DNA of 64,000 nucleotides from Phytoactinopolyspora mesophila (GTDB lineage Bacteria; Actinomycetota; Actinomycetes; Jiangellales; Jiangellaceae): the NCBI RefSeq assembly GCF_010122465.1, contig NZ_WLZY01000011.1, positions 124,001 through 188,000 on the forward strand, in the 5' to 3' direction. The notes below the pieces were generated by a model. The model saw only the letters and a list, made by a program, of their open reading frames with translations, was not told the origin of the DNA and ran no database searches. Below, piece after piece: positions 17,357 to 21,856 of this stretch; positions within the stretch are counted from its first letter, which is position 1; each line of letters opens with the position of its first letter. The translations under genes were made by a program, and so were the position numbers.

Positions 17357-17569
17357 GTGCCTATCGTGATCGACGGCGAGGAGTACATGGACCGGGCTGA
17401 GCTCGCTCGGTACCTCGACGTTGCTCCGAGCACCATCAGCGCCTGGGTGAGCCGGGAGAAAATGCCGCAGCCGGCCAGGCACGTCGGCCGTTCTCCGCTC
17501 TGGCGGGTGCGCGAGATCGACGCATGGGAAGCCAGCAGGCCGGGCAAGGGCTGGCGCAGTCAGCTCTGA
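17357..17569 (+). CDS. small helix-turn-helix (AlpA/excisionase-like) protein
   Basis: The GTG at 17357 gives a 70-residue protein: VPIVIDGEEYMDRAELARYL, then a MerR/excisionase-type helix-turn-helix (DVAPSTISAWVSREKMPQPA) and a wing (GRSPLWRVREIDAWEA). Such proteins act as excisionases or local regulators. No integrase is adjacent, so a regulator role is more likely. Two direct repeats lie just upstream. The start is chosen because it leaves the repeats upstream of the gene. Confidence 0.7.
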   Translation: MPIVIDGEEYMDRAELARYLDVAPSTISAWVSREKMPQPARHVGRSPLWRVREIDAWEASRPGKGWRSQL

Positions 17570-18562: not shown

Positions 18563-18574
18563 TGAGGAGTGAAT

Positions 18575-19195
18575 ATGGATGTGTCCCGCCCGGAACTGCT
18601 GGCCCTGCAGCCCGGGACGGCCGGCGTGCTGCGGGTACTCAGCGGAGCGGACGCCGCGTTCACGATGCGTAGCATCGCCCGACTCGCGGGTGTGTCGCAC
18701 ACGCACGTCGGGAGGATCATCGGCTCGCTCGTTGAACAAGGTGTTGTGTACGACGAGGTTCAAGGTGCCTCGCGATTGTGCAGGCTCAACTGGAGTCACC
18801 TCGCAACCGGCCCGCTGGTCGAGTTGATTCGCCTCCATAGCCGAATGATCGACCTCCTGAGGGCCGAGCTGACGAGTTGGGAGCTACGGCCCGAGCATGC
18901 TTCGCTGTTCGGCTCGGCCGCCAGGGGGGACGGTGACACGTCGAGCGATCTGGACATCTTGCTCGTTCGCACTGATGGCGTGGAAGGAGATCATCCAACC
19001 TGGCGTACTCAGTTGTACGAGGCAGCTGAACGTATCCGCACCGCAACTGGAAACCATGTTGCATGGTTCGACATCTCCCGCCCGGAGCTTCAACTAGCGG
19101 TCGATCAAGGTGAGGCGGTAATCGAAGAGTGGCGTCGCGACGCCGTCCCCTTGGCGGGTGTGGAACTCGATGAAGTCCTTGGGAGTCTGGAATGA
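18575..19195 (+). CDS. MNT-type nucleotidyltransferase antitoxin with N-terminal helix-turn-helix
   Basis: The ATG at 18575 sits well spaced from GAGGA (a GTG at 18569 is too close). The 206-residue protein has a winged helix at residues ~30-55 (MRSIARLAGVSHTHVGRIIG) and then a minimal nucleotidyltransferase: G113-S114, then D125 and D127 in SSDLDILLV. In the MNT/HEPN family the nucleotidyltransferase adds AMP to the HEPN toxin's active-site residues to silence it. Its TGA overlaps the start of the HEPN gene by ATGA, so the two are coupled. The helix-turn-helix likely binds the upstream dyads. Confidence 0.82.
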   Translation: MDVSRPELLALQPGTAGVLRVLSGADAAFTMRSIARLAGVSHTHVGRIIGSLVEQGVVYDEVQGASRLCRLNWSHLATGPLVELIRLHSRMIDLLRAELTSWELRPEHASLFGSAARGDGDTSSDLDILLVRTDGVEGDHPTWRTQLYEAAERIRTATGNHVAWFDISRPELQLAVDQGEAVIEEWRRDAVPLAGVELDEVLGSLE

Positions 19196-19596
19196 CTCGG
19201 CAGTCGATCTGTGGCAAGTCGGAGGCGCAGAATCGCGTTCGGACGGCCCGGATGTACCTCGATGTCGCCAGTGTCGCTGGGACAGAAGAGAAGGTCGAGG
19301 CCCGAGGGGTGGCGGCAGGAAATGCAGTCCTGGCGGCGATTGCTGCGGCGGATTCGATCTGCTGTGCGCGGCTCGGCAAACGGCATCGCGGCCAAGATCA
19401 CTCGGGCGCGATTGGCCTGCTGAAGACTGTGCAGCCGGAGGGCGCGGCGCTGGCCAGGGACCTCCAGGTGGCTCTCAGTGTCAAAGACCCGGCTCACTAT
19501 GGCGAGACGTTTCTGGCCGAGAACAAGCTCAAGATCACCATGAGGGCTGCGAGTCGACTAGTACATGCAGCAGAGGTGATCGTTCCACGTGCGTAG
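19192..19596 (+). CDS. HEPN-domain toxin partner
   Basis: The 134-residue, all-helical protein follows the antitoxin with a 4-base overlap. It carries R-x5-H as RHRGQDH near residue 64-70, the HEPN RNase motif (R-x4-6-H). HEPN toxins of MNT pairs cut RNA and stop growth. The helices before the motif (AAGNAVLAAIAAADSICCAR) match the family. I infer the toxin role from the motif, size and operon order. Confidence 0.75.
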   Translation: MTRQSICGKSEAQNRVRTARMYLDVASVAGTEEKVEARGVAAGNAVLAAIAAADSICCARLGKRHRGQDHSGAIGLLKTVQPEGAALARDLQVALSVKDPAHYGETFLAENKLKITMRAASRLVHAAEVIVPRA

Positions 19597-19743: not shown

Positions 19744-20112
19744 CTAGCTGGGGCCCAGGGTAAGGGCGTCGCGGATGGCCGCGAGACGTTGCGGCACGAC
19801 GCGGTAATGGATCCAGGTGCCGCGGCGCTCGCCGGTGATCAAGCCGGCCTCTTTGAGCAGCTTCAGATGGTGGCTGGTGGTGGCGGCGGTCTTGCCGATT
19901 GCTTCGGCCATGTCGCACGCGCAGACTTCGTCGGCGTTGAGCAGCAACGACAGGATCTTCACCCGCGCGGGATCGGCCAGCGCCTTGAACATCCGCGCCA
20001 GTGAGACGGCGTCGTCGTCGCCGACGGTGGACGCGGGCACGCAGCAGGTGTCGATCACGGGCAGCTCGTGGGTGTCCGGCGACGCTTCGGGGGCGATCGT
20101 TGCGGTGCTCAT
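19744..20112 (-). CDS. arsR: ArsR/SmtB metalloregulator (arsenical-type cysteine site)
   Basis: From the ATG at 20112 (with AGGAG five bases upstream) the protein has 122 residues. The winged helix includes MFKALADPARVKILSLLL and the DNA-reading helix KTAATTSHHLKLLKEAGLIT. Cysteines are C23-C24 in IDTCCVPA and C64, C66 in DEVCACDM. A CC pair near the N-terminus plus a Cys in the alpha4 helix resembles the Corynebacterium ArsR As(III) site. It should repress its divergent neighbour until a thiophilic metal binds. No arsenic pump or reductase is next to it in this window. Confidence 0.85.
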   Translation of the reverse strand: MSTATIAPEASPDTHELPVIDTCCVPASTVGDDDAVSLARMFKALADPARVKILSLLLNADEVCACDMAEAIGKTAATTSHHLKLLKEAGLITGERRGTWIHYRVVPQRLAAIRDALTLGPS

Positions 20113-20252
20113 CGCTCCTATCATACCTGGCCAAGTGTCTGTTTCGAGGCCGGTCGAAATTTTACTTTGAAATTCTTCGAATCAATGATTAGATAGGCAT
20201 CGAAACAAGCGCCAGGGAAGCCCTGGTTGACCTAGCTCATGGAGGAGACGGC

Positions 20253-20444
20253 ATGCACCCGTTCACATCTGAGGTCTGGGCGGCGGAGCGCCGGCGAGAG
20301 CTGACTGCCGAAGCGGCAGAGCACCGGCTGGCGGCGTCTGGCACCCGCCGCACTGGTGTCTTGGCACGCGCGGCTGAACGGCTGCGCAGCGCCTGGGCCG
20401 CGCCCACGCCGAGCCGCGACACGATCTGCTGCTCGCCGGCCTGA
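20253..20444 (+). CDS. small hypothetical protein with C-terminal Cys-Cys motif
   Basis: The 63-residue protein begins MHPFTSEVWAAERRRELTAE after an ATGGAGGAGACGGC leader with a good SD site (GGAGGAG). It is basic and helical (RRRELTAEAAEHRLAASGTR) and ends DTICCSPA. The last motif resembles IDTCCVPA of the divergent ArsR (Cys-Cys, then Pro-Ala). It could bind the same metal. It lies ~140 bases from the ArsR start and is probably under its control. I do not recognise a family with a known function. Confidence 0.6.
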   Translation: MHPFTSEVWAAERRRELTAEAAEHRLAASGTRRTGVLARAAERLRSAWAAPTPSRDTICCSPA

Positions 20445-20499
20445 GCTGGTGCCGTCGTCTGGCCTTGCCGATAACGGCCGACGAGAGGAGGTGGCGACG

Positions 20500-20553
20500 A
20501 TGGACTGCTGCGACGAGCTGACCACGGAGTGCTGCGGCACCGGCTGCTGCTGA
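20500..20553 (+). CDS. 17-residue cysteine-rich peptide gene (candidate)
   Basis: After a strong SD (GAGAGGAGG) an ATG at 20500 opens MDCCDELTTECCGTGCC and stops: 17 residues with six cysteines in three CC pairs. The pattern (CC, CC, CC) would suit soft-metal binding, like a tiny metallothionein. It follows the 63-residue gene by 55 bases on the same strand and is likely co-transcribed under ArsR control. The very short length means it needs expression evidence; the SD and the biased composition are the support. Confidence 0.5.
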   Translation: MDCCDELTTECCGTGCC

Positions 20554-20654
20554 GTGTTGCGCCCGGGTGGTGGTGCTGACGGCTCCACCACCCGACAGCC
20601 ACTATTGGCGCCCGGTCTCGGACACCATCGAGACAAGCCCCGCGGCCGGTTGGC

Positions 20655-20909
20655 GTGGTTGAGATCGACGTCGAGGTCACCGAGGTGGCGGTGAGTGTGA
20701 TGGTGACCGACCACGGGCCAGGCATTCCCGAGGACGAGAGGGAGCGCGTCTTCCAGCGCTTCTGGCGTGGCGCCGACGACGGCGAAGGTGCTGGTCTGGG
20801 GTTGCCGATCGCCCACCAGATCGGCGTCGCACACGGCGGCGGCATCACCGTGGTCTCGCCCGGCCCGACCGGGGACGGCAGCGTGTTCCGCCTTACCCTG
20901 CCGCGGTGA
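20655..20909 (+). pseudogene. histidine kinase ATPase-domain remnant
   Basis: An open frame of 84 codons encodes only the end of a sensor kinase HATPase domain: VTDHGPGIPEDERERVFQRF (G1/N box), then GLGLPIAHQIGVAHGG (G2 box) and a beta strand ending RLTLPR. The dimerisation and sensor parts are absent upstream, where the sequence belongs to the Cys-rich peptide and spacer. It is a remnant of a kinase gene, plausibly from a metal-responsive two-component system. Confidence 0.7.
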
Positions 20910-21094: not shown

Positions 21095-21856
21095 TCACTG
21101 GTCAGTTGGTGGTTCCACAACGTGGCGCAGATATGCATGGGGGTTGTTGAGGTAGCGCCTCCAGTGGTCGACGACGTCGAGGTCTTCCCAGTCCACGCGG
21201 CGTATGCCGTGTTCGCCTACCTCGACGATGTCGGCCCCGGGCGTGGACGCGAGAAGTGGTGAGTGCGTGGCGAAGATGATCTGTGCACCGGACTCGGCGA
21301 GCTCGTGCATCAGCCCGATCAGCCGGAGGCATGACGTGAAGGATAACGGTGCTTCTGGTTCGTCCATGATGTAGAGCCCGGGGGAGCTGAACATCGAGTC
21401 GAACACGGTGAGGAAGCCTTCGCCGTGGCTGAGTATTGTCGTGTCCTCGTCCCAGTAGCCGGGCATTCCGCTGACGACCGACATCAGCCCGAACGCGGTC
21501 TCGGCGCGGAGGAAGAAGCCCTTCTGCTTGCTCCGCCTGGCGCGCTTCATGCGTGCGCCGGCGGCTGTCAGCTCGATTTCGAGTACGTCGCCCAGTGGTG
21601 TCTTCGGGCGGTTGTTGCCGTACTTGCGCCCTGCGCGCCCGCCGTGAGAGTCGAGTCCGAAGGCCTCGGCCAGGGCCTCGACGACGGTGGACTTCCCGGA
21701 GCCGTTCTCGCCGACCAGGACGGTGATCGGGCTGGTGAACTCCAGTCCACGCCCGATCAGCCCATCGACGCACGGAACGGTGAATGGCCATTCTTTCCGC
21801 TCGGCGTCGCTGATCTTCTCTTCCCTGACGAACGCGCGACGAACCAACACGCGCAC
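21095..21856 (-). CDS. ABC/SMC-type AAA ATPase (AAA_23/OLD-like)
   Basis: The 253-residue protein has Walker A GENGSGKSTV near residue 48, an ABC signature-like LSHGEGFLTVF, Walker B LYIMDEPEAPLS and the H-loop IIFATHSPLLAS. This is the compact ABC-type ATPase related to RecF/OLD proteins, without a nuclease domain. It starts at a GTG (21856). No partner gene is close on the same strand. Role is unknown; stand-alone members are often found in accessory regions. Confidence 0.85.
   Translation of the reverse strand: MRVLVRRAFVREEKISDAERKEWPFTVPCVDGLIGRGLEFTSPITVLVGENGSGKSTVVEALAEAFGLDSHGGRAGRKYGNNRPKTPLGDVLEIELTAAGARMKRARRSKQKGFFLRAETAFGLMSVVSGMPGYWDEDTTILSHGEGFLTVFDSMFSSPGLYIMDEPEAPLSFTSCLRLIGLMHELAESGAQIIFATHSPLLASTPGADIVEVGEHGIRRVDWEDLDVVDHWRRYLNNPHAYLRHVVEPPTDQ

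Follow-up and report, generated by a model that had tools for sequence, protein, structure and literature searches.

A three-gene unit carried by the actinobacterium Phytoactinopolyspora mesophila and by relatives in the family Jiangellaceae may be an arsenic-responsive sensor-and-sink module that follows the logic of smtB/smtA with a far smaller effector, a reading to which we give a probability of roughly 55%. In the 64,000-nucleotide stretch analysed here (the window), which spans positions 124001–188000 of contig C11 in a 6.5-Mb genome, the unit consists of an ArsR gene, a divergently transcribed gene for a 63-residue protein and an ORF for a Cys-rich peptide, all three of which had been recognized, and correctly placed, in a first-pass annotation. 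Of 22 Jiangellaceae genomes, 13 (window genome included) carry this unit, at 14 loci in all: 12 in Jiangella and two in Phytoactinopolyspora (the window and locus L018), these being the only two of the family's six genera in which it was found. Gene order is common to all 14 loci: an opposite-strand ArsR, a protein of 63–74 residues, a gap of 34–55 nucleotides that includes a ribosome site, and a peptide of 17–18 residues. A scan of named genomes with the small-protein alignment, which depends on a single short pattern and may omit the window's own genome, returned seven loci, fewer than the 14, in Jiangella ureilytica, J. aurantiaca, J. muralis, J. anatolica (two copies), J. endophytica and Phytoactinopolyspora alkaliphila. 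The two J. anatolica copies (L016 and L021 in genome G013) share a contig at a distance of about 21 kb; one is next to ArsC, the other in a fuller ars island.

Neither the 63–74-residue protein nor the 17-mer was found outside Jiangellaceae among the genomes sampled. Across the class, where up to 15 candidates were scored in each genome, a profile of the small protein had matches at E 0.01 in 30 of 393 genomes; Jiangellaceae account for 13 of these, and the other 17 gave weak matches, the best at 4.2e-4. The peptide profile matched 13 of the 393, all Jiangellaceae, and at the level of the phylum one of 396 genomes, which is the window's own. One further weak match to the small protein (L047 in genome G020, 1e-6) falls beyond the 14 full-length loci and has no CC peptide within 1.5 kb. 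Searches for the small protein in viral contigs and in plasmids found none in either.

ORFs of fewer than 20 codons tend to be skipped by routine annotation, and the peptide gene is one of these: a 17-codon ORF for MDCCDELTTECCGTGCC (20500–20553, + strand). As the first-pass annotation had reported, it follows a strong ribosome site, the Shine–Dalgarno (SD) sequence AGGAGGTG (20486–20493, +), which matches the anti-SD complement over 8 nt and ends 6 nt ahead of the ATG. The best such match is 8–10 nt long at 12 of the 14 loci, as would suit a product required in large amounts, and 6 nt and 5 nt long at the remaining two. The peptide, with the consensus MDCCDDQTTDCCDTGCC, has 17 residues (once 18) and three Cys pairs, giving six Cys in 17; M1, D2, C3, C4, C16 and C17 are invariant. 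Over all 14 copies Cys is retained at 81 of 84 positions, encoded 76 times by TGC and five times by TGT. Residues 7–9 and 13–15 are variable, in contrast to the Cys and to most acidic positions, which are kept; net charge is −4 to −6, and no copy contains Lys or Arg.

Conservation of the reading frame in relatives, which the first-pass annotation had suggested examining, is borne out at every one of the 14 loci. Ungapped nucleotide identity, computed over the 13 copies of equal length, rises from 0.33 upstream to 0.77 in the ribosome site and 0.87 inside the ORF, and falls back to 0.32 and 0.31 beyond it; conservation begins with the ribosome site and ends with the stop codon. The single indel among all copies is one whole codon. 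Pairwise codon differences among the same 13 copies are mostly non-synonymous (306 against 137 synonymous), and the case for translation therefore rests on Cys retention, frame and sharp edges, not on an excess of silent changes. A scan of the window and 13 neighbourhoods (313,832 bases, both strands) for ORFs of 8–40 residues that contain two or more CC pairs and at least 20% Cys returned 14 in all, every one of them this peptide, and we rejected a chance ORF because the peptide is present at every locus and no other such ORF occurs in those bases; the corresponding scan of 43 other loci returned two unrelated ORFs, in L067 and L092. We also rejected the tail of a longer protein, as the stop-to-stop frame spans just 22 codons in one relative. 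Pfam and NCBIfam, including their metallothionein profiles, gave no match to the 17-mer, which was scanned with three upstream codons (20 residues) to reach the 20-residue minimum; a query so short has little power.

The protein encoded ahead of the peptide (20253–20444, +) is basic and, as first noted, ends in DTICCSPA. Its full-length copies at the 14 loci are 63 residues long in the window, 64 in 12 relatives and 74 in one, with a net charge of +3 to +7. The C-terminal CC is kept in all 14, and 12 have a second, internal CC pair that is absent from the window copy. An AlphaFold2 model predicts one helix (residues 3–49) followed by a low-confidence CC tail, with a mean pLDDT of 77.3 and a pTM of 0.37. 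No Pfam or NCBIfam family scored above its cut-off, a Foldseek search of the model against the PDB returned none, the best hit in a PDB sequence profile search had an E value of 1.3, and PADLOC reported nothing for this protein.

The third gene (19744–20112, − strand) encodes a 122-residue winged-helix HTH repressor of the ArsR/SmtB family (Pfam HTH_5, 2e-14; NCBIfam NF033788, 95.1 bits against a cut-off of 55; HTH_metalloreg also above cut-off), which scores 101 bits against the NCBIfam Rv2640c family, under the cut-off of 155. There is an alternative ATG at 20124, yet the 13 relatives begin at the equivalent of 20112. The four Cys to which the first-pass annotation had drawn attention, C23, C24, C64 and C66, are present and invariant in 14 of 14 module copies. 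That annotation had also made much of CC motifs shared between products; both motifs are in the window, but the likeness of DTCCVPA in ArsR to DTICCSPA in the small protein is specific to it, as eight of the 13 relatives' ArsRs read NDCC and the small-protein tails differ (for example, GTACCTT). The 11 module ArsRs present within the 197 class genomes searched score at least 230 bits, and all others among the matches listed score at most 118.6.

Profile alignment with 6j0e (Arsenic responsive repressor ArsR) puts the N-terminal CC on its CC, a point of likeness to the type 3 repressor CgArsR of Corynebacterium glutamicum; type 3 is described as defined by three Cys, a vicinal N-terminal pair and Cys55 (PMC11868830). 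The window ArsR differs in lacking a Cys where 6j0e has its next one; its C64-x-C66 starts four residues later, in a C-x-C reminiscent of R773 ArsR. The CC...CxC pattern is shared with 17 of the 20 best-scoring ArsR loci outside Jiangellaceae, as counted by a regular expression that misses L097, though L097 has both motifs. At 14 of those 20 loci an ACR3, MIP, ArsC or ArsO relative lies within about 1.5 kb on each side. Because most of its nearest outside relatives thus adjoin ars genes and carry the same Cys pattern, the module ArsR is, judged from its sequence, an ordinary arsenic-type regulator; it differs from CgArsR and from the actinobacterial ArsRs found beside ACR3, aquaporin or ArsC in its divergent neighbours, the 64- and 17-residue pair, which are the unusual part.

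Between the divergent genes lies a 140-bp promoter and operator region (20113–20252), and the 14 intergenic regions, 75–143 bp long, align over a common conserved core. Within it, the imperfect inverted repeat TCGAATCA-A-TGATTAGA (20177–20193, +) is a candidate ArsR operator, at which we infer binding. Its left arm, TCGAATCA, is invariant at 14 of 14 loci and, in the shared core, pairs imperfectly with TGNTTAGA across a one-base gap; the right arm is slightly variable in two copies, and, counted by eye, six to seven of eight arm positions are paired in every copy. Weaker copies of the repeat lie 23 bp away at five of the 14 loci. By eye, TTGACA-like and TTAGAT elements overlap the repeat, the latter as a possible −10 of the rightward promoter; a consensus promoter scanner reported a leftward promoter only. 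A genome-wide search with the 18-mer repeat, allowing up to three mismatches, found no second copy, and its one match (the repeat itself) is a count at chance level, because the reversed control pattern also gives one. No Rfam element reached its gathering score between positions 17500 and 22500 of the window.

One Jiangella genome, G012, offers a natural loss. It has no match to the small protein and no ArsR of the module subfamily at E 1e-25, and what is left of the peptide (L113, 1498–1551) is a relic with a weak profile match (E 0.126), a GTG start, four of the six Cys and, by eye, no ribosome site. In a BLASTN comparison with L022 the flanks align at 89% and 91%; of the L022 stretch between them, which holds ArsO-like, ArsC, ArsR and small-protein genes, no more than 38 bp and a 64-bp peptide stretch align in G012. 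As this relic, short of two Cys and a ribosome site, sits in a genome that lacks both ArsR and partner, loss of these two seems, in this one case, to have been followed by decay of the peptide.

Neighbouring genes point to the metal. In a tblastn scan (E 1e-15) of neighbourhoods of 16–20 kb, ars genes lie near the loci of 12 of the 13 relatives, that is, all 12 Jiangella copies: ArsC at 12, ArsO at 10, a second ArsR at 10, an ArsK-like MFS transporter at nine and an aquaporin at eight. These names are to be read with the scores behind them, since ArsK, ArsO, ArsC and NCBIfam MIP fall below their curated cut-offs, while Pfam LMWPc, MFS_1 and MIP exceed theirs. The same scan found no ars genes near the two Phytoactinopolyspora copies. 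ACR3 is above cut-off in five of the 22 family genomes and in none of the 12 Jiangella genomes. In the window genome, which is among the five, the ACR3 gene (L065, contig C14) adjoins, by eye, a ferredoxin-reductase-like gene and a phosphate-transporter-like set, away from the module. Given the ars genes around all 12 Jiangella copies and beside 14 of the 20 nearest outside ArsRs, the metal sensed and bound is, on these genomic associations, most likely As(III), not Sb, Cd or another thiophilic metal.

We propose that ArsR, sitting on the inverted repeat between two divergent promoters, would repress both its own gene and the rightward mini-operon, and that As(III), probably held by the C23–C24 and C64-x-C66 region as the family suggests, would release it. 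The rightward transcript would then give the basic, helical protein of about 64 residues, followed, from the strong ribosome site, by the acidic 17-mer, and would end at a stem-loop. Made in quantity, the peptide might bind As(III) through its six thiols, together with the partner's two to four. CgArsR is described as forming a three-coordinate As(III) site from its vicinal Cys and a third Cys (PMC11868830), and by that measure the six Cys of one peptide could hold about two As(III). Free arsenite would in this way be lowered until ArsO- or ArsK-type, aquaporin or ACR3 functions encoded elsewhere could remove it. Why a sink should be needed is not obvious, since Jiangella already has ArsK-like and aquaporin genes.

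The first-pass annotation had anticipated part of this in a metal-response unit without a pump, perhaps with a tiny arsenical chelator. The conserved reading frame, the operator-like repeat, the ars genes around the 12 Jiangella copies and the arsenic-type ArsR all favour such a unit; the absence of a pump holds within the window and only locally, as the same genome encodes the ACR3 arsenite pump on another contig. Tentatively, and at somewhat less than even odds, we go further and suggest that the 17-mer is a dedicated arsenite-binding metallothionein which, with its basic 64-residue helical partner, makes up a two-part sink or carrier under an arsenic-type ArsR, as a pump-free arm of arsenic resistance in Jiangellaceae.

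The main rival to a sink is that the peptide serves as a carrier together with its oppositely charged partner: a complex of the two, acidic 17-mer and basic 64-mer, would take As(III) to ArsK-like, aquaporin or ArsO proteins. The net charges of the two products are opposite in every copy, both products have CC pairs, and ars genes lie near the Jiangella copies. There is also a precedent in the arsenic chaperone ArsD, which hands As(III) to ArsA and resembles the pair in being linked to ArsR and in having vicinal Cys pairs that presumably ligate As(III). Pfam and NCBIfam reported no ArsD match for the partner protein. Against a shuttle, no ArsA was noticed by eye among the called genes of the neighbourhoods, neither Phytoactinopolyspora copy has such an efflux or enzyme gene nearby, and so strong a ribosome site would not be needed for a shuttle. 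On balance we consider a shuttle unlikely.

Less likely still is a sensor and sink for another thiophilic metal such as Cd, Zn, Cu, Hg or Sb. Thiol pairs are not specific to arsenic, and the two Phytoactinopolyspora copies, with no ars neighbours, leave room for another metal or for a redox role; the arsenic associations of the outside ArsRs, in gene neighbourhood and in Cys pattern alike, and those of all but one of the relatives' loci argue against it. We regard as very improbable a RiPP precursor or a small peptide with a redox or signalling role, for which shortness, Cys content and strong conservation would speak, because the peptide has no leader segment and, among called genes inspected by eye, no maturation enzyme or exporter is common to the 14 neighbourhoods.

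The end of the unit bears on what the peptide is for. A stem-loop with a 10-bp stem, a candidate transcription terminator, lies just beyond the ORF (20564–20594, +; coordinates by eye, from folding the 70 nt that follow the stop codon). It has no T-tract, and was not among the features reported by the consensus scanner. Compared with simple shuffles, the downstream fold has a z score below −1 at 10 of the 14 loci (range +0.5 to −5.9), the other four stem-loops being no better than shuffles, and the stem-loop sequences are unrelated between loci (identity 0.32). The next gene, as called by a simple gene caller, is convergent at nine of the 14 loci, and among the other five the same next gene is found only in L023 and L025. 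With so many convergent neighbours, the most likely place of the peptide is at the end of a putative two-gene transcript, as its last product and not as a leader. Mycobacterial polycysteine leaderless short ORFs, described as mediating cysteine-responsive attenuation of downstream genes (Canestrari et al. 2020, as cited in PMC9031893), are likewise actinobacterial short ORFs with consecutive Cys codons (PMC9031893), whereas the Jiangellaceae ORF follows an SD sequence and seems to be the final one of its unit. That the Cys codons form such an attenuator is the least probable reading of all: a short ORF with Cys–Cys codons does precede a hairpin at most loci, but no downstream gene is conserved, DNA conservation stops with the ORF, and the peptide comes second in its unit.

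Other genes border the unit in the window. Just 3′ of it, at 20655–20909 (+), is an 84-residue histidine-kinase ATPase fragment whose best NCBIfam match is MtrB, probably a gene remnant, and beyond that, at 21095–21856 (−), an AAA_21/AbiEii-like ATPase with PADLOC matches to mad3 and AriA, for which no partner was identified. On the other side, an HTH and nucleotidyltransferase-like protein (18569–19195, +; Polbeta and NTP_transf_2 below cut-off, PADLOC PDC-M05A at 1.3e-14) overlaps by 4 nt the gene for a 134-residue protein with no family (19192–19596, +); the two have the look of a pair of the MNT/HEPN type.

The logic of smtB/smtA is already known; what sets the unit apart is the effector peptide and its partner, neither of which matched a known family. 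Cyanobacterial SmtB/ArsR repressors are described as controlling metallothionein genes through an inverted repeat, and smtB/smtA of Synechococcus and AzuR/NmtA of Anabaena resemble the Jiangellaceae unit in combining an ArsR/SmtB-family repressor with an inverted repeat at the promoter and an effector that is small and rich in Cys, and in encoding no transporter (PMC8790569). In contrast to both, the Jiangellaceae effector has 17 residues with three CC pairs, no C-x-C and no Pfam or NCBIfam match; a second protein, of 63–74 residues, is present; and the metal implied is arsenic, not zinc or cadmium. SmtB/ArsR operators are described as having 12-2-12 repeats (PMC8790569), and the repeat of the Jiangellaceae unit is shorter. 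Among the titles and abstract openings of the best literature matches, with most subscription journals outside the scope of the search, we found no description of this system.

If the proposed reading is correct, several consequences would follow. We know of no gene-encoded metallothionein smaller than this 17-mer, which would show how very small a metallothionein-like product can be and would provide a ready-made arsenic-binding tag. The unit also illustrates how a functional ORF of fewer than 20 codons can be recognized, by its conservation and by its decay where its partners have been lost, as in G012. Bacterial arsenic resistance has been described mainly in terms of reducing, oxidizing, methylating and pumping, and a 17-residue thiol sink under the control of ArsR would add to these a chelation arm that resembles the phytochelatins of plants.
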